From contig OX352761.1 of the NCBI GenBank assembly GCA_947095585.1, positions 54,407,465-54,471,464 on the forward strand: 64,000 bases of DNA, in the 5' to 3' direction. Every line of letters starts with the position of its first letter. The stretch's first letter is position 1. The position numbers and the translations under genes are program-made. Source of the stretch: Nephrocerus scutellatus. Its lineage: Eukaryota; Arthropoda; Insecta; Diptera; Pipunculidae. This document shows, in pieces, positions 36,340 through 58,940 of this stretch. The notes beneath the pieces are model-generated. The model saw only the letters and a list, made by a program, of their open reading frames with translations, was not told where the DNA came from and searched no databases.

Positions 36340-38093
36340 CTGAACATTTCTACTCCGATCACCAGTACATACAAGTCAGTTAAGATGGCAAGCCTACTCG
36401 TCAATCACCTTATAGAAATCATAGGAAGCTGACTGACTGGCTCAAATACCGAGTAACGTTCGATCACTTTTTAAACGTTCACTCTGATCTGAAATTCCCC
36501 CATTAGCACTAATGAACTTGACAACAAGGTCAAGTTACTCACCTGGGATTTTAATAAAGCGCTTTCTGCTTCCTGCCCTCTCACGAGCAGCTGCTCAGGA
36601 AGCTATTCAACGTAGCCAGGCTACTAGATTAGAAGCTGACTAGGATTCCCACTGGGATCCCACTTCACGGGAAGCTCCCATGTGTTAAGTGATGTCGGCC
36701 TTGATAGGACAGACACTCGTACAATCTTCAACAATCTGATAAATAAGGACAAACTGCTTTTGGCGCCACAAAGCTTCAAACTATACAAATCTGCAGGACC
36801 TGATGGCATAATTCCAGCCGAGCTGCAAAGGACTTCGATATTTTCCTTCCTCTGCTGGAAACAATTCTAAAGAGTTGTCTCGATCTGGCCCATATTCCAG
36901 TTTTATGGAGAGAAGTAAACGTGGTTTTCATACCCAAAGCCGGCAAATGCTCGCATGTTAGTCCAAAGGATCTCAAACCAATCAGTCTTTCATCATTCCT
37001 GTTAATCACATATACGTATATAATATATAATGTTAATATACACACACGCATTGACAAACAGATCAGCACACGTATTGTAAATGCAATTCTGTAGAAAGAG
37101 CTCTGCACACACTGGTACGTTCTATTGAACATTCCCTTCACCACAAAGAGTACACAATGGTGGCATTCCCCCTTCTATGGAACTAAGCGGTGAATGAGCT
37201 GCTGGTATGCCTAAGAGGTGAGGGCTGCAGAGTAATCGCTTATGCAGATGAGGTTGCTATTGCCGTCTCAGGAAAATACCCAAATACCTGCAAAATGCTC
37301 TCAACAAGCAAACTTGCTGGTCAGATCGCTGTGGTTTAGGGATAAATCCTCACAAAACTAGGCTTGTCCTATTCACCAGGAAATATAAAGTTCCACTTAT
37401 TAACCCTCCTTCTATTTAAGGTATAAGCTCAACATTCTCTGATAGAGCCAAGTATTTGGGACTTATTTTGAACAGAAAGATAAGCTGGAAACCTAACATA
37501 AAGTCACACTGGCACTCTTCTCGTGCTAAAAAGCCATTGGTAGCAGATGGGGCTTCAACCCCATATAACCCATTGGCTATATAAAGCGGTAATAAGACCT
37601 ACTTTTCTATACGGTGTGACTGTATTGTGGACTGCTCTAAATAATAAATAATAAAGTAAACCTTGACAAATTAAGCAAAGTCCAAATATCAGCTAGTCTA
37701 TGTATGAGCGGAGCAATTCGTACAACCCCCTCTGCCGCATTGGACATTCTGTTCGACCTTCACCAATCGACATTTACAGCAGGCAAGTAGCTGACTAGAA
37801 ATGAAATCGGTCACTCCTCTATCCTGAATTTAGTCAGGCTCCCAGACAATATAGACTACCACATTCCGCAACTCCATTTCAACAAAAACTTCCAGGTCAC
37901 CTTTCCCTCCAGATCATTCTGGGACGAAGACGTTTACTTGGAATGTGAACACATTCATTTTTACACAGACAGGTCAAAAACTGAAGACGGAGTCGGCGTA
38001 GGAGTTTTCTGAAAAAATCTAAATCTTAGCCTCTGTTTCCGTCTTCCAAATCACTGTAGTGTTTTCCAGGCTGAAATTATGGCAATCAGTGAA
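36340..38093 (+). pseudogene. LINE ORF2 with RNase H (copy 1)
   Basis: Frames on the plus strand change often, but the domains follow each other: the linker after the endonuclease (KLTDWLKYRVTF, SASCPLTSS), RT start (YKSAGPDGIIPAELQ, WREVNVVFIPKAGK), the RT catalytic motif reading Y-A-D-E at 37241-37252 instead of YADD, and an RNase H domain (FYTDRSKTEDGVGVG, about 37961; then FQAEIMAI). An RNase H behind RT points to the I/LOA/Jockey-related groups. The 3' end is cut by the minus-strand LINE at 38094. Confidence 0.75.
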
Positions 38094-38499
38094 TCCTTTT
38101 TAATATATAATTCGCGCACGCTTAAAGGGGTTCGCACCCTTATAATGCGCGGCTATATGCTTGGCACATCGTGGACGTTAAGGAAAAGGATGAGAAAAGA
38201 GGAGATGTCTATGAGCTCGTGTTTTGAATGCCTGTGGATCATAGTGATGTGGGAAGACAGAGCTTGGCAGAGCATTCCACATACGTATTGTACGGCTGAA
38301 GAACGAATCCCTAAACTTAATTGTACGTTCGAAGATGTGCTTAATGGTAAACTGATGTGCATTTAGAGCGCCACGAGTATTGCGGTTGAATTCAAGGAGA
38401 GGTGGCATGAAACTGGCTATTTCTCTTGAGCACCGCTGGTGGAAGAAGCGATAAAACAGTGACAAGCAGGAAACGTTCCGGCGGTGTTCAAGCGAATCT
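38094..38499 (-). repeat. Minus-strand LINE, 3' end piece in duplication copy 1
   Basis: The last about 400 bp of the LINE at 40327-42880, including its C-terminal codons (SFFSRTIRMWNALPSSVFP) and 3' tail. It is cut at 38499 by the tandem duplication. In this copy the frame is open past the position where copy 2 has a stop. Confidence 0.85.
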
Positions 38500-40732
38500 A
38501 ACATATTTCTACGTGTTGGACGTGGACGTAACAACTCTCTCAACCAAATAATTCTATACTGGAAGGTATCAGCTGAACATTTCTACTCCGATCACCAGTA
38601 CATACAAGTCAGTTAAGATGGCAAGCCTACTCGTCAATCACCTTATAGAAATCATAGGAAGCTGACTGACTGGCTCAAATACCGAGTAACGTTCGATCAC
38701 TTTTTAAACGTTCACTCTGATCTGAAATTCCCCCATTAGCACTAATGAACTTGACAACAAGGTCAAGTTACTCACCTGGGATTTTAATAAAGCGCTTTCT
38801 GCTTCCTGCCCTCTCACGAGCAGCTGCTCAGGAAGCTATTCAACGTAGCCAGGCTACTAGATTAGAAGCTGACTAGGATTCCCACTGGGATCCCACTTCA
38901 CGGGAAGCTCCCATGTGTTAAGTGATGTCGGCCTTGATAGGACAGACACTCGTACAATCTTCAACAATCTGATAAATAAGGACAAACTGCTTTTGGCGCC
39001 ACAAAGCTTCAAACTATACAAATCTGCAGGACCTGATGGCATAATTCCAGCCGAGCTGCAAAGGACTTCGATATTTTCCTTCCTCTGCTGGAAACAATTC
39101 TAAAGAGTTGTCTCGATCTGGCCCATATTCCAGTTTTATGGAGAGAAGTAAACGTGGTTTTCATACCCAAAGCCGGCAAATGCTCGCATGTTAGTCCAAA
39201 GGATCTCAAACCAATCAGTCTTTCATCATTCCTGTTAATCACATATACGCATATAATATATAATGTTAATATACACACACGCATTGACAAACAGATCAGC
39301 ACACGTATTGTAAATGCAATTCTGTAGAAAGAGCTCTGCACACACTGGTACGTTCTATTGAACATTCCCTTCACCACAAAGAGTACACAATGGTGGCATC
39401 CCCCCTTCTATGGAACTAAGCGGTGAATGAGCTGCTGGTATGCCTAAGAGGTGAGGGCTGCAGAGTAATCGCTTATGCAGATGAGGTTGCTATTGCCGTC
39501 TCAGGAAAATACCCAAATACCTGCAAAATGCTCTCAACAAGCAAACTTGCTGGTCAGATCGCTGTGGTTTAGGGATAAATCCTCACAAAACTAGGCTTGT
39601 CCTATTCACCAGGAAATATAAAGTTCCACTTATTAACCCTCCTTCTATTTAAGGTATAAGCTCAACATTCTCTGATAGAGCCAAGTATTTGGGACTTATT
39701 TTGAACAGAAAGATAAGCTGGAAACCTAACATAAAGTCACACTGGCACTCTTCTCGTGCTAAAAAGCCATTGGTAGCAGATGGGGCTTCAACCCCATATA
39801 ACCCATTGGCTATATAAAGCGGTAATAAGACCTACTTTTCTATACGGTGTGACTGTATTGTGGACTGCTCTAAATAATAAATAATAAAGTAAACCTTGAC
39901 AAATTAAGCAAAGTCCAAATATCAGCTAGTCTATGTATGAGCGGAGCAATTCGTACAACCCCCTCTGCCGCATTGGACATTCTGTTCGACCTTCACCAAT
40001 CGACATTTACAGCAGGCAAGTAGCTGACTAGAAATGAAATCGGTCACTCCTCTATCCTGAATTTAGTCAGGATCCCAGACAATATAGACTACCACATTCC
40101 GCAACTCCATTTCAACAAAAACTTCCAGGTCACCTTTCCCTCCAGATCATTCTGGGACGAAGACGTTTACTTGGAATGTGAACACATTCATTTTTACACA
40201 GACGGGTCAAAAACTGAAGACGGAGTCGGCGTAGGAGTTTTCTGAAAAAATCTAAATCTTAGCCTCTGTTTCCGTCTTCCAAATCACTGTAGTGTTTTCC
40301 AGGCTGAAATTATGGCAATCAGTGAATCCTTTTTAATATATAATTCGCGCACGCTTAAAGGGGTTCGCACCCTTATAATGCGCGGCTATATGCTTGGCAC
40401 ATCGTGGACGTTAAGGAAAAGGATGAGAAAAGAGGAGATGTCTATGAGCTCGTGTTTTGAATGCCTGTGGATCATAGTGATGTGGGAAGACAGAGCTTGG
40501 CAGAGCATTCCACATACGTATTGTACGGCTGAAGAACGAATCCCTAAACTAAATTGTACGTTCGAAGATGTGCTTAATGGTAAACTGATGTGCATTTAGA
40601 GCGCCACGAGTATTGCGGTTGAATTCAAGGAGAGGTGGCATGAAACTGGCTATTTCTCTTGAGCACCGCTGGTGGAAGAAGCGATAAAACAGTGACAAGC
40701 AGGAAACGTTCCGGCGGTGTTCAAGCGAATCT
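38500..40732. repeat. Tandem segmental duplication, copy 2 (2,233 bp)
   Basis: Second copy of 36267-38499. Its right edge runs without a break into the rest of the minus-strand LINE, so this copy keeps the original right junction. One of the few differences (AACTTAATT to AACTAAATT) makes an in-frame stop in that LINE at about 40547. Confidence 0.95.
38573..40326 (+). pseudogene. LINE ORF2 with RNase H (copy 2)
   Basis: Duplicate of 36340-38093. The Y-A-D-E motif is at 39474-39485. The RNase H here reads YTDGSKTEDG, with the usual Gly that copy 1 has changed to Arg. Confidence 0.75.
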
Positions 40733-41673
40733 ATTGATTTCGCAATGTTTTCGTCACCGAAAAGTTTTATCGCACGGTTTTGTATTCTATCTAGTTGATA
40801 CAAGGTGGTTCTAGGCGCACCAGACCAGATATGACAATTGAACTCAAGTTTAGGGCGAATAAAGGCCTTGTAGATAGTAGCCAGGTCAGAGGGAGTGAAA
40901 AATTTCTTGCACCGGGTTAGAAAACCTAAACATTTCGCAGCATTTTTGGCGACGGTAAATATGTGGTCATTCCAACGAAGCTTGTCGTTGACGCACATAC
41001 CGAGAATTGTCAGATTTTCAGTTTCCTCCTGAATGGCACTTGCATTCATGGATAATGGCATGGGATTTGGGATTCGCTTGGACGACAGGAGACAGCATTG
41101 GGTTTTTGAAGCGTTAAATTCAACTCGATTGTTTTCTCCCCATTTTATTATGCTGTCTAGGTCAGAGTTTAACGTGCTTAACATACGAAGTTGTTTGAGT
41201 TCCACATGAGATCTGGAGGGACGTTCCTCAAACTTATATGAGAAGCTGAGAGTGCTCTCGTCGGCGAAGGAGTGAATTGGATTAGAAGTCACAGATAAGA
41301 GATCATTAATAAAAATGAGAAAGAGTGTCGGGGACAGAACAGAGCCCTGGGGAACGCCAGCATTTATGTGGTGAATTTTAGACTTGAATCCGTCCAAAAC
41401 AACTTGAATTGAGCGGTCCAAAAGATAGCTTCTAATCCAATGAAGCAGTTTATCATCGACACCAAAGGCACGCATTTTTGACAAAAGAGCTTGATGCCAA
41501 ACTCTGTCAAATGCCTTAGAAATATCAAGTGCAACAGCTTTGCTTTCACCAAATTGATGCAAAGACCGGTTCCACTGTTCGGTGAAATATACCATCAAAT
41601 CACCAGTGGAACGTTGCCCACGAAATCCGTACTGCCGGTCACTAAGGATTTCATTGATTTCAAAATATTTCAT
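40411..41673 (-). pseudogene. LINE reverse transcriptase (minus strand)
   Basis: An almost complete RT frame: SDRQYGFRGQRSTGD, ALDISKAFDRVWH (first catalytic Asp), GVPQGSVLSPTLF, then the catalytic motif reading F-A-D-E at 41257-41268 instead of FADD. After it come the thumb (NDKLRWNDHIFTVAKNAAK) and the conserved C-terminal region (IYKAFIRPKLEF). A TAG near 40547 stops the frame early; the C-terminus then continues in frame to about 40411 (NALPSSVFPHHYD). Confidence 0.85.
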
Positions 41674-42898: not shown

Positions 42899-43204
42899 TT
42901 ATTTGAGATGGTGGTCGCTGTAAATGGTAAAGGGAAGACCAAAAATATATTTGTGAAACTTTTTCACTGCAAAGACTATGGCAAGAGCTTCCCAATGCAA
43001 CTGCGAATAATTTTTTTCCGCAGGCGATAGCGTGCTAGATACGAAAAGCATTGGTTTTTCCACCCCATTAACTACATGCGATAAAATGGCTCCGACCCCG
43101 TATGGACTTGCATCAGCTGCAATGACTATGGGATTGTTCGGATCGTATAATACTAATACATTAATAATTATAACTAACTTTTTCGGGATTTTGCCTAATG
43201 CCAC
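42899..43204 (-). pseudogene. gypsy A RNase H domain
   Basis: The frame has IVIAADASPYGVGAILSH (first catalytic Asp), MLFVSSTLSPAEKNYSQLHWEALAIVFAVKKFHKYIFG (second acidic residue) and IYSDHHLK, ending just as the LINE insertion starts. It is in a different frame from the RT at 43161 (frameshift in the 43161-43204 overlap). Confidence 0.85.
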
Positions 43205-45374: not shown

Positions 45375-46978
45375 AGCTCAAGACAATATCATAAACGACC
45401 GTAAGTCCTTTTTTCAATTCGTCAACTATAAAAGGAAGTCCGATGGCTACCTTCCGTCACTCTCATATGAAAACACATCATCAACCAATCCACGTACCAT
45501 TGCCAACTTTTTTGCTACCTTCTTCAAACAATCTTTCGCTGTCAACCCCTTCGTACCAGACCCTTCATATTTCAATTACTTACTTAACTTCTCCAACGGC
45601 CCCTTTCTCTCTCAAACTATCGACCCCACTGTTATCAAAAATAAACTACAAAACCTTAATGATGAATTCTCACCCGGCCCAGATGGCCTTCCAGGCTCTC
45701 CCTCCCCCTTTCTAACCTCTTTCCACTATCCCTCTCACAAGGAGAATTTCCTCAAATTTAGAAGAGCTCTTTCATAACCCCAATACACAAAAAAGTATCA
45801 AAGAATGATGTACCTAATTATCGCCCCATTGCTAAACTTTCTCATATACCCAAACTTTTCGAAAGTATTTTATACGAAACCCTAAGCTTCTATTGTAAGT
45901 CTCTTATCTCTCCGAGCCGACATGGCTTTCTCAAAGGTAGATCAACCACCACTACCCTCGTTGAATTCGTGTCCTCCGCTCTTACAGCCTTAGAGAACGG
46001 CAACGAAGTCGACGTTGTTGCAACTGATTTCAGTAAGGCTTTTGATAAGATATCTCATCAATTAATCCTTTTTAAATTGTCTGCCCTCGGCTTTGAAGCT
46101 TTATTTTTAAAATGGATATCTTCCTATCTAGAAAACCGTGTTTATAGTGTTCGCTTCAGGTTCGTCATCTCAACCACATTTATGGCAACCTCTGGTGTAC
46201 CACAAGGCAGCCATGTCGGCCCCCTTCTCTTCATTCTTACTATAAATGATCTCGATAGGGTCATCAAAAATTCCTCCCTCTCTCTCTATGCTAACGATAC
46301 CAAATTTTTCAAGCCAATTTCTTCTCCACAAGACTCTTGTCTCCAGACAGTTTTTCGACCTGGTGCCTCAAAAATTGCTTAGAGCTCAATATCACCAAAT
46401 GTTAAACTATTACCTTATCACGTAAGTGCAACAAACCCCCTCCCAGACATTACCATCTCCACGACCAAGCCATTTCCCGCGTGCAATCTTTTCATGACCT
46501 CGGCATATTTCCGGAGCTTAATTTCCGTTCTCATATTGATGGAATCATTCCTAAAGCTAACTCATCATCACTTGGCTTTATTAAACGGTGGTCCAAAGAA
46601 TTTTCCAACCCATATGTGACTAGATCCCTCTATATCACTTTTGTCTGTCCCCTCCTCGAGTACGCTAGTCAAGCATGGTCCCCCTATCATCAAGTTCATG
46701 TGTCTAGAATCGAGAGCGTCTAACGTCGTTTTCTTCGATTTGCTCTTCGGGGCTTACCTTGGGACAATCACCTTATCCTGCCCCCTACCAAGATCGCCTA
46801 AACCTCCTAAACTTAAAAACACTTGAGGAACGCAGAGACACTGCTGACATTCTTTTCATACATCGTATTCTCCTAGGCTCCATCGACTGCGCGTCTTTAT
46901 ATAACTCGATTTTTTTTAACACCGCAACCACTCTCTGCCTTAAACTTGATCTCCTTCACCGTTCCCCCTATCGTTAAG
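45375..46978 (+). pseudogene. LINE B ORF2, reverse transcriptase part
   Basis: It begins with the linker (VNYKRKSDGYLP, FFATFFKQSF, SPGPDGLP). The RT core frame 45969-46382 has VVATDFSKAFDKISH (first Asp), SGVPQGSHVGPLLF and the catalytic motif reading Y-A-N-D at 46287-46298 instead of YADD. The thumb region (46481-46977: GIFPELNFRSHID, SLYITFVCPLLEYASQAWSP, KTLEERRDTADILFIHRIL) runs in several frames. There is no endonuclease between ORF1 and RT. Confidence 0.8.
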
Positions 46979-47055: not shown

Positions 47056-47059
47056 AGTT
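47056..47059. other. Target-site duplication AGTT (left)
   Basis: AGTT directly before the LTR at 47060. The same bases follow the other LTR at 57933-57936. Confidence 0.85.
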
Positions 47060-49337
47060 TGTAACGAGGTTTTCCCAGCCGGGGTAGAACTCAGTGTGAC
47101 CAGGGTTCCTTCTATTAGGGTCGTTACAATAAAAGAATTTGTTTTTAGTTAACTTCGTTTAATCTGTACACTTAAAATTATCGTTTGTTTAAAGCTATAT
47201 ATTATTTTACTGTATAAGTTTCAATTATGATTAAAGGAGACCGACGTATCTCCAGGCGGGATGATAGTCTGTTCTCGCGTAGAGCGTGGATTTGAAGGCA
47301 AGGACTTCGCTCTTGAACCTCCAATAGTGTGGATAATGTCTAGCGTTAGGCGTGGGCGTGAAGGCAAGGACTTCGCTCTTGAACCTCCAATCTAGCGTAA
47401 AGCGTGGATAATGTCTAGCGTAAAGCGTGGGCGTGAAGGCAAGGACTTCGCTCTTGAACCTCCAATCTAGCGTAAAGCGTGGGCGTGAAGGCAAGGACTT
47501 CGCTCTTGAACCTTCAATCTAGCGTAAAGCGTGGATAATGTCTAGCGTAAAGCGTGGGCGTGAAGGCAAGGACTTCGCTCTTGAACCTCCAATCTAGCGT
47601 AAAGCGTGGATAATGTCTAGCGTAAAGCGTGGGCGTGAAGGCAAGGACTTCGCTCTTGAACCTTCAATCTAGCGTAAAGCGTGGGTAATGTCTAGCGTAA
47701 AGCGTGGGCGTGAAGGCAAGGACTTCGCTCTTGAACCTCCAATCTAGCGTAAAGCGTGGGTAATGTCTAGCGTAAAGCGTGGGCGTGAAGGCAAGGACTT
47801 CGCTCTTGAACCTCCAATCTAGCGTAAAGCGTGGGCGTGAAGGCAAGGACTTCGCTCTTGAACCTCCAATCTAGCGTAAAGCGTGGGTAATGTCTAGCGT
47901 AAAGCGTTGGCGTGAAGGCAAGGACTTCGCTCTTGAACCTCCAATCTAACGTAAAGCGTGGGTAATGTCTAGCGTAAAGCGTGGGCGTGAAGGCAAGGAC
48001 TTCGCTCTTGAACCTCCAATCTAGCGTAAAGCGTGGGTAATGTCTAGCGTAAAGCGTGGGCGTGAAGGCAAGGACTTCGCTCTTGAACCTCCAATCTAGC
48101 GTAAAGCGTGGGTAATGTATAGCGTAAAGCGTGGGCGTGAAGGCAAGGACTTCGCTCTTGAACCTCCAATCGTTAGGATAACTACTGGCGTAAAGTGTAA
48201 AGTGAAGGCAAGGACTTCGCTCTTGAACCATTCACTCTGACTTGTTGCCGGGAAGAGGGATTTCTAGGAAAGAAGACCGATTGTTAGGACTGCTGGCCTT
48301 TTATAGTCCTCCATCGAGTGTGGAAATCCCGTTGTTGCAACGATCGTGAAATCCGCTAACTCGCCTGATGGTGTGTTGTTGTTTCCTTTGATGTGATATG
48401 GTTGTTGTTGTTTTGTCCGGCCGGTCAGTATTGCTGCGCTCGGCGGTCTATTGGTTCGTGATCCCGTTGGTGCAACGATAGGGAAATCCGCTACGTCACA
48501 TGATCGGTGGGACTTGGTAGTGTTGTTGTTGCCTCTTTGATGTTTGTTAGTTCCAAGATCCCGTTGATGCAAAATTAGGGAACTCCGCTACATCGCATGA
48601 TCGGTGTAGTGTTGTTGTTGTTTTGACTCGTTTGTTATTTGTTGGTTTGCCTCGAAAATGCGTGCTGTCGTACATTGTGTGTTGTTTGTTGTTGTTTTTT
48701 TCTTTTGGTTGTCTAATGATGCTGCAGACTTCTGATTGTCCGTTATCATATTTTGCATGCTGTTTGTTGTTGCCTTTTACGTGGGTCTGCGCCGTCTTAC
48801 ACTGCATGCGTTGTTGTTGTTGTTCTCCTTGACTTGTCTGATGCAAAATGTATGCATGTTGTTTGTTGTTGTTTTGAATATTGGTCGGGTATTCTGTGTC
48901 TGTGGTGCTGTATGCCTGCTGTTGTTGTTTTCTCCAATGATGCTGTGTGCTTCTGCATGTATTGTGAGTCACGAGCGGGGTATCCCTAGTCTGTGTGGTC
49001 TGGTGCTGTATGTGTGTCGTCATTCTCTCACTCAGCTGCTTGATGATGGCGTGCATTGGTTGTGCGTGGTGAATTTACGCGTTGTGAGAGGAACGACAGA
49101 ACGAAATATAGAGAACCTGTGTATCATAAGCCGAGAGTAATTTCGGCGAGTAATTTACCACTTAAAAGAGTGGGAAACATGTTGCTAGGTTTAAGAACAT
49201 TATGGTAAACGTTTCTTTGTAATGTGTATGTAAGTTTTTTTTTTATTAAATTCAAAAGAAAGTGTTGTTTACAAAAAGATGGTTGCGTACCAAAAATAAT
49301 GTGTGGAAAAAATTGTGTGGCAAATTTTCCCTTCACA
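47060..49337 (-). repeat. 3' LTR of the Osvaldo-like element (2,278 bp)
   Basis: Read on the plus strand it starts TGTAACGAGG and ends CCTTCACA (minus strand TGTGAAGG...CGTTACA). It contains a 75-bp minisatellite (47260-48230) and (GTT)-rich stretches (48360-48940). It lacks about 36 bp that the other LTR has at 55665-55700. A 169-residue Gln/Thr/His-rich frame (48547-49056) is present in both LTRs and follows from the GTT repeats. Confidence 0.9.
47260..48230. repeat. 75-bp minisatellite in the 3' LTR
   Basis: About 14-15 units around GAAGGCAAGGACTTCGCTCT. Some units are shortened variants without the GTAATGTCTAGCG part. The 75-bp period is 25 codons, which keeps minus-strand frames open; the resulting repeated peptide is probably not a protein. 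Confidence 0.9.
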
Positions 49338-50703
49338 CCTCCCCCTTACTTCGACGGATGCTGATCTTTCCCTTCCTGGTGACTAGCACTCCAAGTCGGG
49401 TCTTGTCCTGCACATGGAAGAAGTGTATCCTTCGTAGTTCTCCCGCTTGTACTCTCGCCTTTGCCGTATCTATCTTGGCCTGGAGTTCATGGGATACGGT
49501 TTCGCTCATGGTCTCTTCTTTGTGCACTATGTCACTCCCTGTGAGTGACAGGACATCTTCCTGTCGTCGGGTCGTCGCGGTTTTTGGTGGGTTGTTCCTG
49601 TCTGGTCCGGGTTCGAGGAGGCCTGTCGGCGGGGTGAAACTTCTTTCCCTCGGTTTGTTGTTGTGGCTGCCACTGCTACTGCTGCTGCTACTGCGGTTGC
49701 TGCTGTTGCTCCCACTACTGCTGCTGCTGCGGGTGCTGTTGCTACTACTGTCACTGCTGCTGCTACTGCTATCGTGTCTGCTGCGGCTGCGGTAGCGGTG
49801 GCGAGTGCGGCGCGGAGTTTTTGGCCTGCTGCGGTTGACTCTTTCTCGGATGTTACAGTCTATGTCGTCATCGCCTAGTCCGAGATCTGGAAACTTAATT
49901 GCTGGGTCGGCGCTTCTTTGGATGAGGTTGGCAAGCATTCTCCGTTTCTTGCTGGCGCTGTCCGGCGACATCCTCTGGCCTGGCGAGTTGGGTCCTGCCA
50001 GTCCCCAGGTGAGGACTTTCTCCGCTGCTTCCAGTAAAAATGCGCCACAATCCACCCCATTTCGCTGTTGTGGCATCTCCATGTGTCGGCCTGGGTATGA
50101 GTCCTGGAACTCTGCCCACGTCCAGTGATGTCCCTTCGATAGGTGCTGTTGCACGACGTAGCCGCGAATTACCTCAATGGCCTCGTTCCTTGGTGTTTTG
50201 GCCCACGAATCGTACACATCAATGGTGGCACGGTGAGGTCTCCCCGGGTTGGTAACCACCACGAGGTACCAATGGTTGCCGTCGCAAATGGGCACTAAAA
50301 CCAGGTCTTTCCTGATGAGGTCCTTGTGCCGGTCCCACCTGCTCACTAGTGCGTGTCGCCTAATGGCCGTTGACTCGGGGCTCTCCTGCTGATCTGGCTG
50401 GTACTGCTGCATCCGTGAGAAGAGGAATGTGCTGCAGATCTTGATTCTCTCCCGGTGGCTTTCCTCCATCCTTCTCTCTAACCACCTGAGTCCGACTCCC
50501 ACCAGAACGTCGTTGAAGTATACCCCTTTCTTTAGTCGGCAGTAGTCGGCCATTCGCACATCGATGCCACCTGGCCCTGGAGGAAAACTTCCGATCACCT
50601 GGTTTAATTCGGCGTCTCCGGATGCGTGAATCGTGTTTGTGGCTTCCATGCAGATGCGTTGTATGGCTTCGTTGTCTATCTTGGGTGTCCTCTGGGTATT
50701 CAT
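49333..50703 (-). CDS. Ulp1/SENP-like (C48) cysteine protease ORF of the LTR element
   Basis: 456 intact codons after pol, starting at 50703, 290 bases past the pol stop; the stop codon falls in the first bases of the 3' LTR. The N-terminal 230 residues match a Ulp1 fold: YFNDVLVGVGLRWL (residues 62-75, like the WLND start), FLFSRM, DLVLVPICDGNHW with His144, VYDSWA with Asp165, and PQQRNGVDCG with Gln213 and Cys219. The Gln-Cys spacing of six equals that of yeast Ulp1. Known Ulp1/SENP enzymes cleave SUMO or similar modifiers. Residues 290-350 are Arg/Ser- and Ser-rich, and about 100 residues follow. There is no signal peptide or membrane span, so it is not an envelope. Target and role are unknown. 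It could be made from a spliced RNA, which I cannot show. Confidence 0.9.
   Translation of the reverse strand: MNTQRTPKIDNEAIQRICMEATNTIHASGDAELNQVIGSFPPGPGGIDVRMADYCRLKKGVYFNDVLVGVGLRWLERRMEESHRERIKICSTFLFSRMQQYQPDQQESPESTAIRRHALVSRWDRHKDLIRKDLVLVPICDGNHWYLVVVTNPGRPHRATIDVYDSWAKTPRNEAIEVIRGYVVQQHLSKGHHWTWAEFQDSYPGRHMEMPQQRNGVDCGAFLLEAAEKVLTWGLAGPNSPGQRMSPDSASKKRRMLANLIQRSADPAIKFPDLGLGDDDIDCNIRERVNRSRPKTPRRTRHRYRSRSRHDSSSSSSDSSSNSTRSSSSSGSNSSNRSSSSSSSGSHNNKPRERSFTPPTGLLEPGPDRNNPPKTATTRRQEDVLSLTGSDIVHKEETMSETVSHELQAKIDTAKARVQAGELRRIHFFHVQDKTRLGVLVTRKGKISIRRSKGEV
49338..49351 (-). other. Polypurine tract of the Osvaldo-like element
   Basis: The minus strand reads AAGTAAGGGGGAGG directly before the 3' LTR (TGTGAAGG). 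It is the expected priming site for plus-strand DNA. The tract lies inside the last codons of the third ORF. Confidence 0.85.
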
Positions 50704-50993
50704 CTTGTAAAATTTTTGTTGGTTTTGGTTTTGTTTACGATGTCTGGATACACTGAGTAATCACTTGAGACTAATTTTTACTTGTTGTGTGTACTTGAAA
50801 CGAAAACAAGTTGCGCGACCTGTACTCCGTTATTTTCTTCTTCTGGTGTAGTTTACTTCGTTGTTTCAGCATTGGGGTGTCGTGGTGTTACTTTGGATGT
50901 GTTGTCTTTTCTTTCTTTTCCCAAGTTGATATCATAGTTTCTGTAATTTAACTCTTTTGGTTACAGATGGGATCGTCAAATGCCGTTTCGGTG
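50704..50993 (-). other. Spacer between pol and the third ORF
   Basis: 290 bases without a frame. A splice acceptor for a subgenomic RNA could lie here (TTTTACAAG just before the ATG), but the pyrimidine tract is weak. Confidence 0.35.
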
Positions 50994-53900
50994 TCAGTGT
51001 GTTGCTGACGTATTGCTCTGGATTTCGATGATGATGCTATTGATCGCTGTCGCATTTTCGTCATGCCCCTGACTTCTCTCTCCCGCTTGTGTTCTTTTGT
51101 GTGGTCGTCTTGAGGTTTGTTGCCGATTGTTTTGTCTTGTGGTTTTTAATGGAACGATGTTCTGTTCATGGTTCCCCGTCCCAGACCGCCAGTTGCGCGG
51201 GTGATTATACCATTCGTGCTGATGTTTGCTGCCGTGTTGTATCACTGTGGGCTCGTTAGAGTGTTGGGTGTGGGGTGTCACTGTTATTGCGATGCGGTTT
51301 GTCTTCTCTGGTTCGGGTGGGGAGTTTCCGTGGAAGTCTTTCAACTCATTGACGTGGGCTGTGCGCTCCTTGTTTTGCCCATGTTTCCTTAGCCTTACTA
51401 TGACAGGTGAGACGAAGCTCATTACTAAGTATGGCCCGTCGTATCGTGGTGCTAGTTTACTAGCGAACCCTTCCACTGCCTTTGATAGGTGGTGCTGTTT
51501 GACCAGCATCAGATTCCCGATCTCGGGCTTCCAAGGACGTCGTCTGAGGTTGTAGTGGCGGGCTTGATCCTTCGCAGCTCGTTCGAAGCTTCGTCGCACG
51601 ATCTCGAAGATCTCGTTCATCTGGGTCTTTCGGTCCTCTGGTTTTTTACCTAGTGTACCCGTCCCAGGAGTGATCTCGTCGTACAGCGTGTTCGGGAGGC
51701 GGGGTTCTCGGCCCTGTGTCAGGAATGCCGGGCTGTATCCTGTTGAGTCCTGTACGCTTGAATTTATTGCTAGCATAACTTCGGGCAGCTTCTCGTCCCA
51801 AGTGCGTTGTTGCGTTCCCGCTAGTTGTGCAATTATTGTTTTAGCGGTGCGGTTGACCCTTTCAGAGGGATTTTCTTGGGGGGTATATGGCGCTGTAAAT
51901 TGCTGGCGTATGCCCATGGTCTCCAAGAATCGACGAAATGCCCTGCTACTGAATTGCGCCCCGTTGTCTGTTATCAGGATCTTGGGTACGCCGTATCGGG
52001 CCAGTATACGTTCGCGAAAAGCCCGTTGGACTCCTTCGGTCGTTGCCCTTCGCATTGGAATCAGTTCGACCCATTTCGAAAACCGATCAAAGAAAACCAG
52101 TAACATGGTATTTCCGTGTTTCGACCTAGGGAGTGGCCCAACGAAGTCACTACACAATGTGGCCCATGGTTCGTCGGCCACCTGGGTAAGCATTTTACCT
52201 GCTGCTTGCTGTTGGCTGGGTTTGTAGCACTGGCAGCTTTCACATTTCTTTACATACTGACGAATGTCACGAAACATACCCGGCCAATAGTAGCGACCGC
52301 ATATTCTCGCCGTGGTCTTCCGGATCCCCAGGTGCCCTGCTGATGCGCTGTCATGGTTTTCCTGCAGTACCCGACTTCGAAGGTTACTCGGCACACACAG
52401 TTTCCACGGTGTTGAGTCCTCGTCTCCGGCTCGATGCCCTATGTGTCGATACAGCTGCTGGCCTTCGATCACGTAGTCGGGGAATTTGGCTGGGTTCTCT
52501 GTGACCTGCTGGACCTTCTTTTGCAGCCAGTGGCACTTCTGTTGCTCTACGTGTTCCTCGGAGGTTGCCATCAGTGTTTCTTGCGGCTGTCTTGATAGAG
52601 CGTCTGCAACGACGTTGAATTTGCCCCGCCTGTACTGTATGTCGTATGTATACTGCTGTAGTTCTAGCGCCCACCGTGCGATCCGGCCGGACGGGCTGGA
52701 TATCGAGTTTAGCCATTTGAGCGAGAGGTGGTCTGTTATTACTGTAAACCTATACCCTTCGATGTATGCCCGCATCTTCCTTATTCCCCATACGATGGCC
52801 AGGCATTCCTTTTCGGTCGGCGAGTAGTTCTTCTCTGCGGGGTTTAGGTGTCGACTGGCATACGCTATGACCCGTTCACTGTCGTCTATCTCCTGGGTGA
52901 GGACTGCTCCTAAACCATAATCGCTGACATCCGTCTGGAGTGTGAACTTCTTAGAGAAATCGGGGCAGGCCAGGATTGGGGCCTCGGTAAGTTTAACTTT
53001 GAGTGCTTCGAATGCTTGCTGCTGCTCTTCTCCCCACTTCCAGTGCTTGCCTTTCTTGAGGAGGCTCGTCATCGGTCGCACGGTCTCGGCGAAATCTGGA
53101 ACAAATCGGCGGTACCATGAAGCGATGCCCAGGTACCGGCGTACCTCTCGTACATTACTCGGGGGTTGGAGCTCTTTGATGGCCGCTATTTTGTCGGGGT
53201 CAGTGTGTATGCCTTTGTTACTGACCACGTGTCCCAAGTACCGTATTTCCGTTTTGCAGAACTCACATTTTTCCGGGTTAATTTTTAGGTTAGCCATCTG
53301 CAATCGCCTGAACACCTTGCGCAGATTTCCCATGTGTTCGTCAAACGTTCTCCCGATGACGACTATGTCGTCAAGATATGCAAACGCATGGGGCTCCATC
53401 TCTGGTCCGATGACTCGATCGAGCGCTCGCTGGAAGGTCGCAGGGGCCGAATGTAGCCCAAACGGCATCACGCGCCATTGGAACAAGCCACGGCCGGGTA
53501 CCGTGAAGGCGGTGTACTGCTTACTCTTCTCCTCCATGGGGATTTGCCAATATCCATTTCTCAGGTCCAGACTACTGATGAATTTGGCACCGCGAAGCTT
53601 TTCTAGAATGTGTTGGATTCGTGGCAGGGGGTATGCGTCGGGCACTGATCGTGCATTCAGTTCTCGATAGTCGATACATAGTCTCCATTTGCCCGTCTTC
53701 TTTCGCACGAGAACTATGGGCGCGCTGTGGGGGCTATGTGAAGGCTCGATACATCCTTTTTCCAACAACTCGTCGATCTCTGTATTTATTATTTCCTGCA
53801 TGGCTGGATTACGGGGGAAGTAGCGCTGCTTTATTGGGCGTTCGTCGTGCATGATGATTCTGTGTTCCGTGATGTTGGAAACGGCGGGTAGTTGATCAAA

Positions 53901-54497
53901 TTTCTTGAATTCTTGTTGCAGAAACGCTGAAAGCTGTTCCTGTTCAGTCCGTGGTGTTTCTTGCGTGGTGGTGCATTGTCGGATGTGTTCTGCGGGCGTT
54001 GTTCTGTGCTGTAATTTTATGGTCTGGCCACCGCAGCTTAGACGGGCCTCAACCCGTGACAAAAAGTCCAGACCTAAGATTACTTCATCCATTGCATCTG
54101 GGAGAATCAAGAATGGAAACTGTATCTCCCTATTACCTATCTCGACATCTAGCTGTAGGGCCTCTCGGATCAACTTGGGTGTCCCTTCGGCCATCCGTAC
54201 GGTCACATCCATGGGTAGACTCTTTGTTGTCCCCCTTTTGTCTTCTGCAAAACGTTCGCTCACAAAACTCCTAGTAGCCCCTGTGTCAATCGTAGCTTTT
54301 ACCGGCGTCCCTCCTAGGGTGATGGTGGCGAGGATCCGGTTGGAATCGTAGGCAAGGAAGTTTACTGGGCCCGGGGTGTCGGTCTCGGGGTTTCCGTCGC
54401 ACCACGGTTTCGGCGGTCCCCTTGCTCGTTTCCCGGTCGTTCGACGCGTTTCCGGCAGCATTCCACGGTCCGAACATTTCGAAGGCCGCAGTCCCAA
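50994..54497 (-). CDS. pol: Pol polyprotein (protease, RT, RNase H, integrase) of the Osvaldo-like element
   Basis: 1167 intact codons counted from the first Met (the frame is entered by frameshifting, so the Met need not be used). Domains: aspartic protease (DTG at 71-73); RT (SLDLRNGYWQI, Asp311; YLDD at 374-377, bases 53367-53378); RNase H (Asp523, Glu562, Asp589); integrase zinc motif (His715, His722, Cys752, Cys755); integrase core (Asp784, Asp844, Glu879); and a GPY/F-type module (GPYLV, about 1021-1025). All catalytic residues are present, so the enzyme set may be functional. It makes and inserts the cDNA in virus-like particles and the nucleus. It overlaps the end of gag. Confidence 0.95.
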   Translation of the reverse strand: MGLRPSKCSDRGMLPETRRTTGKRARGPPKPWCDGNPETDTPGPVNFLAYDSNRILATITLGGTPVKATIDTGATRSFVSERFAEDKRGTTKSLPMDVTVRMAEGTPKLIREALQLDVEIGNREIQFPFLILPDAMDEVILGLDFLSRVEARLSCGGQTIKLQHRTTPAEHIRQCTTTQETPRTEQEQLSAFLQQEFKKFDQLPAVSNITEHRIIMHDERPIKQRYFPRNPAMQEIINTEIDELLEKGCIEPSHSPHSAPIVLVRKKTGKWRLCIDYRELNARSVPDAYPLPRIQHILEKLRGAKFISSLDLRNGYWQIPMEEKSKQYTAFTVPGRGLFQWRVMPFGLHSAPATFQRALDRVIGPEMEPHAFAYLDDIVVIGRTFDEHMGNLRKVFRRLQMANLKINPEKCEFCKTEIRYLGHVVSNKGIHTDPDKIAAIKELQPPSNVREVRRYLGIASWYRRFVPDFAETVRPMTSLLKKGKHWKWGEEQQQAFEALKVKLTEAPILACPDFSKKFTLQTDVSDYGLGAVLTQEIDDSERVIAYASRHLNPAEKNYSPTEKECLAIVWGIRKMRAYIEGYRFTVITDHLSLKWLNSISSPSGRIARWALELQQYTYDIQYRRGKFNVVADALSRQPQETLMATSEEHVEQQKCHWLQKKVQQVTENPAKFPDYVIEGQQLYRHIGHRAGDEDSTPWKLCVPSNLRSRVLQENHDSASAGHLGIRKTTARICGRYYWPGMFRDIRQYVKKCESCQCYKPSQQQAAGKMLTQVADEPWATLCSDFVGPLPRSKHGNTMLLVFFDRFSKWVELIPMRRATTEGVQRAFRERILARYGVPKILITDNGAQFSSRAFRRFLETMGIRQQFTAPYTPQENPSERVNRTAKTIIAQLAGTQQRTWDEKLPEVMLAINSSVQDSTGYSPAFLTQGREPRLPNTLYDEITPGTGTLGKKPEDRKTQMNEIFEIVRRSFERAAKDQARHYNLRRRPWKPEIGNLMLVKQHHLSKAVEGFASKLAPRYDGPYLVMSFVSPVIVRLRKHGQNKERTAHVNELKDFHGNSPPEPEKTNRIAITVTPHTQHSNEPTVIQHGSKHQHEWYNHPRNWRSGTGNHEQNIVPLKTTRQNNRQQTSRRPHKRTQAGERSQGHDENATAINSIIIEIQSNTSATH

Positions 54498-55483
54498 CAG
54501 AAGATGGTTTGGGGGTTACGACAGTCCCGCCTCATGTGTCCGTCCTGGCCACATCGCAGGCAAGCCGTCCTTACATTTATTCGCGCTTCCATATTTTGTG
54601 CTACCATGAAATTCCTTTCGGGTTGTCTGGGTCGGGGCGAGGGTTTGATAGGTTCTGCTGCACCAGCGATGCCTTCGAAATCTTCTGCCAGACTGATGAG
54701 TTCGTGGAGGTCTCTAAAATCCTTCCTCCGGATATAGTACTGGTACTCTTGGCGACAGTTTCGGAAGATCCTTTCGACCTGTTGTGTACCGGCGTAGTTT
54801 GCGTGCCTCATGAGGTTCTGCATTATGATTACGAAATCCTTGAAGCGCTCCTTTGGCTTTTGCTGGCGTTGACGAATTTCGTCTTCTAGATGTTCCCAGT
54901 ACCTGGAGGGCAGGAAGAACTGTAGAAAATCTGTCGTGAAGGCGTTCCAGGTCTCCCATTTTCGGTTGTTGTTTCGGAACCATAATAACGCGCGTTCACG
55001 GAGTAGTTCCGGCATGGTTCTGGGTAGAAGGTCCCTGTTTAAACAGTAGGCATCCGCAAGTTCTTCTAGCCTTTCGATGAATAGGAGAGGCTCCTTACCA
55101 CCATCGTACTTCACCGACCACTTCCTCACCTGGTCCATTATTTGAGCGTACGACGTAACTGTCGTGTCCGTCCTGCTTCGCGTTGGAACCACTTCCGGTG
55201 GTGCCGGAGAGATTGCCCTGATGGTTGCCTTTGGGTCGTCGCGTACCGTGGCTTCAGATGGATTCAAGGTTATAAGGGGCGCTTGTGATGGGCTGCGTCT
55301 ATGCTTCTCCTCGAGCTCACTTAGGCGTATCTCGTCCTCCGACGTAACGTCTCGTCCCGAAACAAAGCTGGAAAACCTTTTCCTTAAATCTTCCACTGCG
55401 CCGTTGCTGTCGATTCGGAACTCGCTCATGTAGCTCTTCAGCTCCTCTTTCGACAGTGCATAAATCCAACTGGTCTTAACCAT
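54362..55483 (-). CDS. gag: Gag of the Osvaldo-like element
   Basis: 373 intact codons, Met at 55483, about 70 bases after the primer site. Residues 5-41 (WIYALSKEELKSYMSEF...GAVEDLRKRF) look like a SAP-type helix-turn-helix. Residues 118-270 are the capsid region (VKYDGGKEPLLFIERLEELADAY, ERFKDFV). A CCHC knuckle is at 308-321 (CLRCGQDGHMRRDC), and a second, Cys-only cluster (CWDCGLRNVRTVECC) is at 329-343. Gag builds the particle and binds the RNA. Pol follows in the -1 frame. Confidence 0.93.
   Translation of the reverse strand: MVKTSWIYALSKEELKSYMSEFRIDSNGAVEDLRKRFSSFVSGRDVTSEDEIRLSELEEKHRRSPSQAPLITLNPSEATVRDDPKATIRAISPAPPEVVPTRSRTDTTVTSYAQIMDQVRKWSVKYDGGKEPLLFIERLEELADAYCLNRDLLPRTMPELLRERALLWFRNNNRKWETWNAFTTDFLQFFLPSRYWEHLEDEIRQRQQKPKERFKDFVIIMQNLMRHANYAGTQQVERIFRNCRQEYQYYIRRKDFRDLHELISLAEDFEGIAGAAEPIKPSPRPRQPERNFMVAQNMEARINVRTACLRCGQDGHMRRDCRNPQTIFCWDCGLRNVRTVECCRKRVERPGNEQGDRRNRGATETPRPTPRAQ
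54428..54434 (-). promoter_or_regulatory. -1 ribosomal frameshift site GGGAAAC
   Basis: The minus strand reads G-GGA-AAC in the gag frame inside the gag/pol overlap (54362-54497). Slipping back one base enters exactly the pol frame. Downstream (toward 54362) the RNA is GC-rich and could fold into a stimulatory structure. The heptamer fits the canonical X-XXY-YYZ pattern. Confidence 0.8.
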
Positions 55484-55553
55484 CGTGGTTATCTAATTGT
55501 GTTCTTTCTTTATTGGTATATTTTTTTTTTTTTTTTCTCTATCAAATTCCAGA

Positions 55554-55571
55554 GTCCCTGCTCGGGCGCCA
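55554..55571 (-). other. Primer-binding site of the Osvaldo-like element (tRNA-Lys)
   Basis: The minus strand reads TGGCGCCCGAGCAGGGAC two bases after the 5' LTR. It differs at one position from the tRNA-Lys3 primer site (A to G at base 11). Confidence 0.9.
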
Positions 55572-55573
55572 AT

Positions 55574-57932
55574 TGTAACGAGGTTTTCCCAGCCGGGGTA
55601 GAACTCAGTGTGACCAGGGTTCCTTCTATTAGGGTCGTTACAATAAAAGAATTTGTTTTTAGTTGGGAATGGAATTCAATCGTTCTTTATTTGTTCTTCG
55701 CTTAATCTGTACACTTAAAATTGTCGTTTGTTTAAAGCTATATATTATTTTACTGTATAAGTTTCAATTATGATTAAAGGAGACCGACGTATCTCCAGGC
55801 GGGATGATAGTCTGTTCTCGCGTAGAGCGTGGATTTGAAGGCAAGGACTTCGCTCTTGAACCTCCAATAGTGTGGATAATGTCTAGCGTAAGGCGTGGGC
55901 GTGAAGGCAAGGACTTCGCTCTTGAACCTCCAATCTAGCGTAAAGCATGGATAATGTCTAGCGTAAAGCGTGGGCGTGAAGGCAAGGACTTCGCTCTTGA
56001 ACCTCCAATCTAGCGTAAAGCGTGGGTAATGTCTAGCGTAAAGCGTGGGCGTGAAGGCAAGGACTTCGCTCTTGAACCTTCAATCTAGCGTAAAGCGTGG
56101 ATAATGTCTAGCGTAAAGCGTGGGCGTGAAGGCAAGGACTTCGCTCTTGAACCTCCAATCTAGCGTAAAGCGTGGATAATGTCTAGCGTAAAGCGTGGGC
56201 GTGAAGGCAAGGACTTCGCTCTTGAACCTTCAATCTAGCGTAAAGCGTGGGTAATGTCTAGCGTAAAGCGTGGGCGTGAAGGCAAGGACTTCGCTCTTGA
56301 ACCTCCAATCTAGCGTAAAGCGTGGGTAATGTCTAGCGTAAAGCGTGGGCGTGAAGGCAAGGACTTCGCTCTTGAACCTCCAATCTAGCGTAAAGCGTGG
56401 GTAATGTCTAGCGTAAAGCGTGGGCGTGAAGGCAAGGACTTCGCTCTTGAACCTCCAATCTAGCGTAAAGCGTGGGTAATGTCTAGCGTAAAGTGTGGGC
56501 GTGAAGGCAAGGACTTCGCTCTTGAACCTCCAATCTAGCGTAAAGCGTGGGTAATGTCTAGCGTAAAGCGTGGGCGTGAAGGCAAGGACTTCGCTCTTGA
56601 ACCCCCAATCTAGCGTAAAGCGTGGGTAATGTCTAGCGTAAAGCGTGGGCGTGAAGGCAAGGACTTCGCTCTTTAACCTCCAATCTAGCGTAAAGCGTGG
56701 GTAATGTCTAGCGTAAAGCGTGGGCGTGAAGGCAAGGACTTCGCTCTTGAACCTCCAATCGTTAGGATAACTACTGGCGTAAAGTGTAAAGTGAAGGCAA
56801 GGACTTCGCTCTTGAACCATTCACTCTGACTTGTTGCCGGGAAGAGGTATTTCTAGGAAAGAAGACCGATTGTTAGGACTGCTGGCCTTTTATAGTCCTC
56901 CATCGAGTGTGGAAATCCCGTTGTTGCAACGATCGTGAAATCCGCTAACTCGCCTGATGGTGTGCTGTTGTTGTTGTTTCCTTTGATGTGATATGGTTGT
57001 TGTTGTTTTGTCCGGCCGGTCAGTATTGCTGCGCTCGGCGGTCTATTGGTCCGTGATCCCGTTGGTGCAACGATAGGGAAATCCGCTACGTCACATGATC
57101 GGTGGGACTTGGTAGTGTTGTTGTTGCCTCTTTGATGTTTGTTAGTTCCAAGATCCCGTTGATGCAAAATTAGGGAACTCCGCTACATCGCATGATCGGT
57201 GTAGTGTTGTTGTTGTTTTGACTCGTTTGTTATTTGTTGGTTTGCCTCGAAAATGCGTGCTGTCGTACATTGTGTGTTGTTTGTTGTTGTTTTTTTCTTT
57301 TGGTTGTCTAATGATGCTGCAGACTTCTGATTGTCCGTTATCATATTTTGCATGCTGTTTGTTGTTGCCTTTTACGTGGGTCTGCGCCGTCTTACACTGC
57401 ATGCGTTGTTGTTGTTGTTCTCCTTGACTTGTCTGATGCAAAATGTATGCATGTTGTTTGTTGTTGTTTTGAATATTGGTCGGGTATTCTGTGTCTGTGG
57501 TGCTGTATGCCTGCTGTTGTTGTTTTCTCCAATGATGCTGTGTGCTTCTGCATGTATTGTGAGTCACGAGCGGGGTATCCCTAGTCTGTGTGGTCTGGTG
57601 CTGTATGTGTGTCGTCATTCTCTCACTCAGCTGCTTGATGATGGCGTGCATTGGTTGTGCGTGGTGAATTTACGCGTTGTGAGAGGAACGACAGAACGAA
57701 ATATAGAGAACCTGTGTATCATAAGCCGAGAGTAATTTCGGCGAGTAATTTACCACTTAAAAGAGTGGGAAACATGTTGCTAGGTTTAAGAACATTATGG
57801 TAAACGTTTCTTTGTAATGTGTATGCAAGTTTTTTTTTTATTAAATTCAAAAGAAAGTGTTGTTTACAAAAAGATGGTTGCGTACCAAAAATAATGTGTG
57901 GAAAAAATTGTGTGGCAAATTTTCCCTTCACA
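55574..57932 (-). repeat. 5' LTR of the Osvaldo-like element (2,359 bp)
   Basis: Same ends and order as the 3' LTR: TGTAACGAGG...CCTTCACA on the plus strand. It contains a 75-bp array (55790-56810, about 15 units, differing in number and variants from the other LTR) and the GTT-rich part. It keeps about 36 bp (55665-55700) lost from the 3' LTR. Confidence 0.92.
55790..56810. repeat. 75-bp minisatellite in the 5' LTR
   Basis: Regular 75-bp units, purer than in the 3' LTR. The 196-residue minus-strand frame (56230-56820) made of 25-residue repeats follows from the period. Confidence 0.9.
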
Positions 57933-57936
57933 AGTT
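57933..57936. other. Target-site duplication AGTT (right)
   Basis: Partner of 47056-47059. Confidence 0.85.
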
Positions 57937-58005
57937 TTAAGATAATGCTATTAGCTTGCAATAAGCCGAATAAATGGGGGCGATCTGCCCCCACCAAAGT
58001 TAAAA
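57937..58005 (+). mobile_element. LINE B 3' end, right of the nested element
   Basis: Short piece that completes LINE B once the LTR element is taken out. It has a hairpin GGGGGC-GATCT-GCCCCC (57976-57992) near its end, followed by a short A-rich tail (AAAGTTAAAA), then gypsy A RT sequence. A 3' hairpin is a plausible RT recognition structure. Confidence 0.6.
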
Positions 58006-58940
58006 ATTGGGCTTGCCCATCGCGAATATTTAATAGGTTCTATAATATTTTTATTTACTAACCGTTCCAATTCAGCTTCAACTACTCCTTTGACCTGATA
58101 GGGTACCGTATAGGCACAGTGAAATATTGGCTGTACATTATGTTCTACTAAAATCTCCACCATAAAATCCTTTATAGGGGGATCATATACATTTACTGAT
58201 TTTATATTAGGATATTTTTCTAATATCTTTTCCATGAGACTTATTTTATTTAAGTTATTTACCGACTTATAATAAGTATGTTCCTTGGCTGGTTCAACAA
58301 AACTAAATCTCCAGTCTGGTTTTAAAACATTTAACCATGATCTCCCAATCAACGGTTTAAAATCGCGGCTAGCATCAATAACGACTAACTCCAAAACATG
58401 CCTCTTTCCCCACAGCTCAACATTGACTCGAATCTGACCCAAGACTTTTATAGATTCACCTGTAACTGTAGTACAATTATTAGAGTAACTTTCAATATTT
58501 ATCTTACTAAAATATGAGTGATACTTATCTAGCGAAATTACTGAAGCGCAGGCACCAGTATCGACTTCCATATACAACGGTTGACCTTCCACTAATACAT
58601 TCATCTCGCATGGACTATCTGTTTGTTGTACTGCATTTATGTCATTCAAGCGATTTTTTCTACAAACGTATGACGTATGGCCATATTTATTGCAGCTATA
58701 ACATTTCCAAGATTTAGCAGGACACTGACTTTCATGTTGATTTCTCACTCCACATCTCGTACACAATTTAGCATTCTTATTTCTCGATGATCGGTTTGGA
58801 CTTCTATCCTGAGTACTCGATGAACTTCGTGATTGATTACGGTTTCGACTATAATTTGACTTATTTCTGTTTGCTTGGATGTGACCTTTGTCGACTAACA
58901 TAACCTTGCTTTTTTTCGATCCATGTGCTTTATTGGCATG
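58006..58940 (-). pseudogene. gypsy A gag end, protease and RT start
   Basis: The frame 58901-58006 reads an Arg/Ser-rich linker, zinc clusters (CTRCGVRNQHESQC; CYSCNKYGHTSYVC), the protease active site (MEVDTGACASVIS), the protease flap and end (LIGRSWLNVLKPDW), and the RT fingers (PYQVKGVVEAELERLVNKNIIEPI, SRWASPI), where LINE B cuts in. Codons past 58006 are LINE sequence read by chance. A second-type knuckle plus fused gag-pol frame fits the gypsy group related to CsRn1/Mag-like elements; the exact group is unsure. Confidence 0.85.

Follow-up and report, generated by a model that had tools for sequence, protein, structure and literature searches.

A predicted SENP7-like C48 protease gene carried by a Ty3/gypsy-type LTR retrotransposon of the fly Nephrocerus scutellatus

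Proteases of the Ulp1 type (family C48) are known from DNA transposons, as a first-pass annotation of the DNA studied here had stated: Ginger1 and Mutator (PMC2836005) as well as the Cryptons CryptonF and CryptonS (PMC3212892) encode them, and in Ginger1 the Ulp1 domain follows a gypsy-type integrase. In Drosophila melanogaster, 17 of the 17 long terminal repeat (LTR) element lineages with a third open reading frame (ORF) belong to the gypsy/gypsy clade and carry env-F (PMC12992720). Here, we describe an LTR retrotransposon of the pipunculid fly Nephrocerus scutellatus whose third ORF (ORF3) is almost certainly a C48-type protease gene of the element itself. It was found in a stretch of 64,000 nucleotides (contig OX352761.1, positions 54,407,465 to 54,471,464; hereafter the window), in which it forms a single complete element of 10,873 bp on the minus strand (47060-57932). 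In the open-access literature apart from Repbase Reports, judged mostly by titles and the opening lines of abstracts, we found no report of a C48, Ulp1 or SENP protein in an LTR retrotransposon. The terms "Ulp1" and "C48" were likewise absent, by term search, from the main text of a 2026 survey of transposable elements in D. virilis (PMC12910113).

ORF3 (49333-50703, minus strand) is intact, as had been claimed, with 456 codons from ATG to TGA, and its product combines a C48 (Ulp1/SENP) domain with an Arg/Ser-rich tail. The domain is borne by the N-terminal 285 codons (49849-50703), in which residues 78-230 matched Pfam family PF02902 (E 6.6e-25; 88.7 bits, cut-off 20.7), so that the profile check proposed earlier was positive. 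The motifs were found at the residues that the first-pass annotation had given: YFND from residue 62, NHWYLVVV from 143 (H144), YDSW from 164 (D165) and PQQRNGVDCG from 211 (Q213 and C219). The catalytic order H144, D165, Q213, C219 was invariant in an alignment with SENP1 and with P0021, a related predicted protein described below. The predicted structure had the Ulp1/SENP fold, most like that of SENP7, at moderate confidence. Absence of a C48 match had been named as grounds for giving up the assignment, but both profile and predicted fold were of C48 type. The basic tail (residues 286-456; 49336-49848; 36 Ser and 25 Arg; isoelectric point 11.5) was also as described.

The position of ORF3 ties it to the element. 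It starts after a gap of 290 nt behind the pol stop codon (50704-50993), which contains stops in all three frames, and it uses a third frame, different from the frames of gag and pol. It had been placed between pol and the polypurine tract (PPT). It does lie downstream of pol, but the PPT (AAGGGGGAGG, 49338-49347), which abuts the 3' LTR, is coding within ORF3, and ORF3 ends five bases into the 3' LTR, where its stop codon (49333-49335) lies. Because ORF3 reads through the PPT and is terminated by a codon that the LTR supplies, we conclude that it belongs to the element. The GC content of the C48 domain by codon position (0.57, 0.43, 0.65) was similar to that of pol (0.57, 0.43, 0.57) and gag (0.55, 0.44, 0.59).

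In insect endogenous retroviruses, env-F is a third ORF in a similar position downstream of pol, and it has a signal peptide, a fusion peptide and a membrane span (PMC12992720), whereas ORF3 has neither a membrane span nor an env match. Its top 19-residue hydropathy was 1.09, within the protease core, and the six Pfam matches with E values of 10 or less include no env family. An env reading of ORF3 was therefore rejected. It had also been stated that Osvaldo-like relatives are usually described with an env-like ORF, which fails for D. melanogaster, where the third ORFs are all in the gypsy/gypsy clade (PMC12992720).

ORF3 appears to be a captured gene whose predicted product is a SUMO protease; sequence comparisons and the predicted fold bring it closest to the SENP6/7 (Ulp2-type) enzymes. 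Its best PDB sequence match was SENP7 (3eay, E 5.8e-16, residues 38-155), followed by SENP1 (2.2e-10) and SENP2 (3.3e-8); no SENP6 chain was among the PDB sequence matches listed. A two-sequence profile of ORF3 and P0021 separated SENP7 (2.4e-35) from SENP2 (8.5e-15) by about 20 orders of magnitude, and the C48 piece of P0021 was itself nearest to SENP7 (2.2e-19 versus 2.1e-8 for SENP2; plain identity 31.5% to SENP7 and 23.0% to SENP1). SENP7 ranked first by PDB sequence, by the two-sequence profile, by predicted fold and with the P0021 piece. A protein search with residues 1-285 of ORF3 gave no match at E 1e-3 among 961 candidates of 0.55-1.75 times the query length, and NCBIfam gave no match for ORF3. 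Viral contigs contained no relatives of ORF3, profile A2, pol or P0021, and bacterial and archaeal genome contigs had no match to profile A3.

The SENP6/7 (Ulp2-type) proteases, including Drosophila Velo, share with ORF3 the C48 fold and the H-D-Q-C set, SENP7 being the best match by profile and fold, and the sequence leading into the core of SENP7 is similar to that of ORF3. ORF3 differs from them in being retrotransposon-encoded and short (456 residues) and in its Arg/Ser-rich tail, Velo being compared by description. Ginger1 transposes as DNA by cut-and-paste and has terminal inverted repeats (PMC2836005), whereas the element in the window has LTRs, gag, reverse transcriptase (RT) and a separate ORF3. 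With RT, RNase H and LTRs present, membership in Ginger1 was ruled out. The transposition machinery of Cryptons (PMC3212892) and Mutator (PMC2836005) is unrelated to that of the element.

A second case of a gypsy-type pol with C48 was found in a search with the window pol, in which a size-limited set of 7973 candidates was scored, at least 3314 passed and the best 120 of these were examined. P0021 (1483 residues; a predicted protein from a 6409-bp contig in ENA) was the sole carrier of PF02902 among these 120. At the protein level it reads protease-RT-RNase H-integrase-C48; its pol is 58% identical to that of the window, and its C48 domain is 28.7% identical to that of ORF3, with H, D, Q and C all kept. 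The joining of pol and C48 thus recurs, which argues against a chance rearrangement. In an unrooted tree of five sequences, the ORF3 and P0021 domains grouped together in 88% of 200 bootstraps.

Among the same 120 matches, 23 had over 80 further residues behind the part aligned with pol, and one of the 23, P0021, had a C48 match to ORF3; these counts are made at the protein level and refer to tails fused to pol. The fused tails of the related pols P0015, P0034, P0037 and P0069 contained no C48. In a FastTree phylogeny of 120 pol regions (window and P0002-P0120; P0121 left out), the window pol fell in a 20-member group (support 0.94) that also holds P0037 and P0015, and P0021 was among four sequences joining this group at a node with support 0.74. 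The placement of P0021, P0015 and P0037 would fit a single gain followed by loss as well as two separate gains, and the distribution of pol with C48 in these sequences is patchy.

The last ~45 residues of the four tails without C48 look alike. The end of ORF3 weakly resembles three of the four (25 of 2000 shuffles reach the score); no such resemblance was seen for the end of P0021 against the tail ends (260 of 2000) or for ORF3 against P0021 (1724 of 2000). The four-tail profile failed to separate P0021 from shuffles, and ORF3 was not in the best 40 rows; we make no claim of a shared C-terminal motif. By eye, the P0015 and P0037 tails show acidic stretches resembling SUMO-interacting motifs (SIMs) beside Ser/Pro-rich sequence. 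A fixed SIM pattern, which misses the P0037 stretch, matched two (P0015 and P0021) of 25 pieces, namely the 23 tails and ORF3 in two pieces. No clear SIM enrichment was seen (2 in 6419 residues versus 5 in 25117 residues for the rest of the proteins that have tails). P0004, from Eurosta solidaginis, combines a related gypsy pol with a Pao-type peptidase and transposase-like sequence and looks like a chimaeric gene model.

What might such a protease do for the element? Fly silencing guided by PIWI-interacting RNAs (piRNAs) uses Panx in its SUMOylated form: repression is abolished when four lysines are lost, and a stable SUMO fusion restores it, whereas a cleavable fusion does so only partly (PMC13195609). 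Among mammalian homologues, SENP7 has been described as the one closest to Velo, and SENP7L is brought to heterochromatin by an HP1 box (PMC8324896). We propose that an ancestor of the window element and the P0021 element took the gene once from a cellular SENP6/7-like gene, and that the protease was later lost in some relatives. The basic Arg/Ser tail would let the ORF3 protein enter the nucleus, where it may deSUMOylate host factors at the transcript or DNA of the element, perhaps by taking off SUMO chains. Candidate targets are the SUMO-dependent piRNA/Panoramix and heterochromatin machinery, and the element might thereby stay expressed long enough to transpose. Taken as a whole, a captured SENP6/7-like gene with deSUMOylation directed against host silencing is our favored reading and, in our judgment, an evenly balanced proposal. 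The fuller claim, which we put forward more tentatively, is that a fly gypsy-type lineage holds in its third-gene slot a SENP7-type deSUMOylase acting in trans on SUMO-dependent piRNA and heterochromatin silencing, and that this would be the first retrotransposon-encoded SUMO protease of counter-defence.

Several observations weigh against this proposal. With regard to the kinship with SENP7, plain identity of ORF3 was 26.9% to SENP7 (219 columns) versus 27.1% to SENP1. Profile A2, which holds a SENP1 row, ranked SENP1 first in the PDB, a ranking inflated by that row. The protein search with whole ORF3 had vole SENP1 as its sole match (within a size-limited set of 7990 scored candidates), the protein searches taking candidates of 0.55-1.75 times the query length, a range outside which the long SENP6/7 and Velo proteins lie. 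With regard to a single capture, the difference between the identity of the C48 domains (28.7%) and that of pol (58%) makes independent captures possible, and the five-sequence tree, being small and having long branches, gives weak support for one capture. The pol clade of the window includes P0015 and P0037, whose fused tails lack C48, so the protease seems dispensable there. With regard to action on silencing, ORF3 has no PxVxL HP1 box, so targeting would have to proceed via other contacts, perhaps the Arg/Ser-rich tail, and neither of the two ORF3 pieces matched the fixed SIM-like pattern. The GC content of the tail by codon position (0.49, 0.57, 0.63) is unlike that of gag and pol, and the analysis covers a single copy of the element.

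The main rival to action on host silencing is that the protease removes SUMO from the element's own Gag, integrase or pre-integration complex, in assembly, nuclear entry or integration. It is somewhat favored by P0021, a predicted protein that unites integrase and C48, so that the protease could travel with the integrase. In the transposases of Ginger1, too, a gypsy-type integrase is followed by Ulp1 or OTU, which was suggested to take part in transposition or repair (PMC2836005). In the window element, however, ORF3 stands apart from pol, in a different frame and beyond a gap of 290 nt, and the related tails lack C48; we regard this explanation as rather unlikely, although it deserves serious weight. 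It is improbable that the protease acts on NEDD8 or ubiquitin in place of SUMO, or serves as a viral-type protease on Gag or ORF3, since SENP7 came first in most of the comparisons, the two-sequence profile setting it apart by some 20 orders of magnitude, and pol already has an aspartic protease.

ORF3 might also be a passenger, a piece of a host gene caught by chance and of no use to the element. Recent insertions stay intact for a while without selection, and four related pol tails are without C48; but P0021 has the same order of pol and C48 and retains H, D, Q and C although overall identity is down to 28.7%, which implies long maintenance or repeated capture. We therefore give a passenger little credence. 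That ORF3 is a foreign gene brought next to pol by an assembly artefact or a rearrangement, the event the first-pass annotation had thought could undo its reading, is very unlikely indeed, and we found nothing in its favor: ORF3 is on the sense strand, its coding sequence includes the PPT and its stop codon comes from the LTR, the target site duplications (TSDs) match, and P0021 has the same order.

In its other features, the element is a Ty3/gypsy LTR retrotransposon of complete structure and recent insertion, and the description of it as complete was borne out. The insertion is flanked by AGTT TSDs at 47056-47059 and 57933-57936. Both LTRs, the 3' LTR (47060-49337, 2278 bp) and the 5' LTR (55574-57932, 2359 bp), lie on the minus strand, as do all features given below for the element, read TGTGAA...GTTACA with the TG..CA ends of the family, and contain 75-bp tandem repeats. 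Their global alignment gave 13 substitutions and five gap runs totaling 81 positions, two of these runs (46 positions) being in the repeat array; insertion is considered recent because the LTRs match so nearly. The arrays, ~0.9 kb in each LTR with a 75-bp unit (47273-48171 and 55872-56760), differ by two 23-bp gaps; that of the 5' LTR has 11.9 copies and that of the 3' LTR contains 52-bp variant units. Two bases downstream of the 5' LTR is a primer binding site (55554-55571, TGGCGCCCGAGCAGGGAC), which we take to be of the tRNA-Lys type. A scan for tRNA genes with ARAGORN found none. The gag ORF (54362-55483, 373 residues) matched Retrotrans_gag in Pfam, with a CCHC knuckle match below its cut-off. 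It overlaps in a -1 frame relation with the pol ORF (50994-54497), which follows in the order aspartic protease, RT, RNase H and integrase (H2C2, rve); both ORFs are open.

By its pol neighbors, the element is of fly type: the best-ranked organism-named pol matches (best 120 of 3314) were from Diptera. None of these 120 was named Osvaldo or Ulysses, most having no name at all. An Osvaldo/Ulysses group has been defined among the LTR elements of 20 Drosophila species (PMC5408442), and membership in it is plausible from LTR size and the dipteran pol neighbors. The LTRs of Ulysses are 2 kb (PMC3136932), compared with 2.28 and 2.36 kb here, the two being likened by description. D. virilis Ulysses was described with two ORFs, whereas the window element has a third, and Ulysses piRNAs in D. 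virilis testes come mostly from its large LTRs (PMC3136932).

The surroundings of the insertion are rich in mobile elements. A gag-protease remnant of another LTR element adjoins it (57951-58901, minus strand; the protease below Pfam cut-offs), and the joined flanks do not continue the frame of this remnant, which was thus already degraded or ended there. RT fragments (RVT_1), of non-LTR type by eye, are present at 40549-41673 and 45969-46382, and position 42902-43204 holds an RT_RNaseH fragment that stems from another LTR element. In the region 36776-40532, a 300-nt stretch at 38000 recurs unchanged at 40233, and the ORF at 36776 has a near-identical counterpart at 39009; the common 2233-bp offset makes the region look like a tandem duplication.

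The third-gene slot of gypsy-type elements can thus hold what appears to be a captured intracellular enzyme in place of an envelope gene, and recruitment of Ulp1-type proteases would extend to the retrotransposon side, besides the DNA transposons with gypsy-type integrases. If the proposed function is true, an LTR retrotransposon that encodes a SUMO protease would directly antagonize fly piRNA silencing, which uses SUMO (PMC13195609), and transposon counter-defence against this silencing would become testable with one small enzyme.

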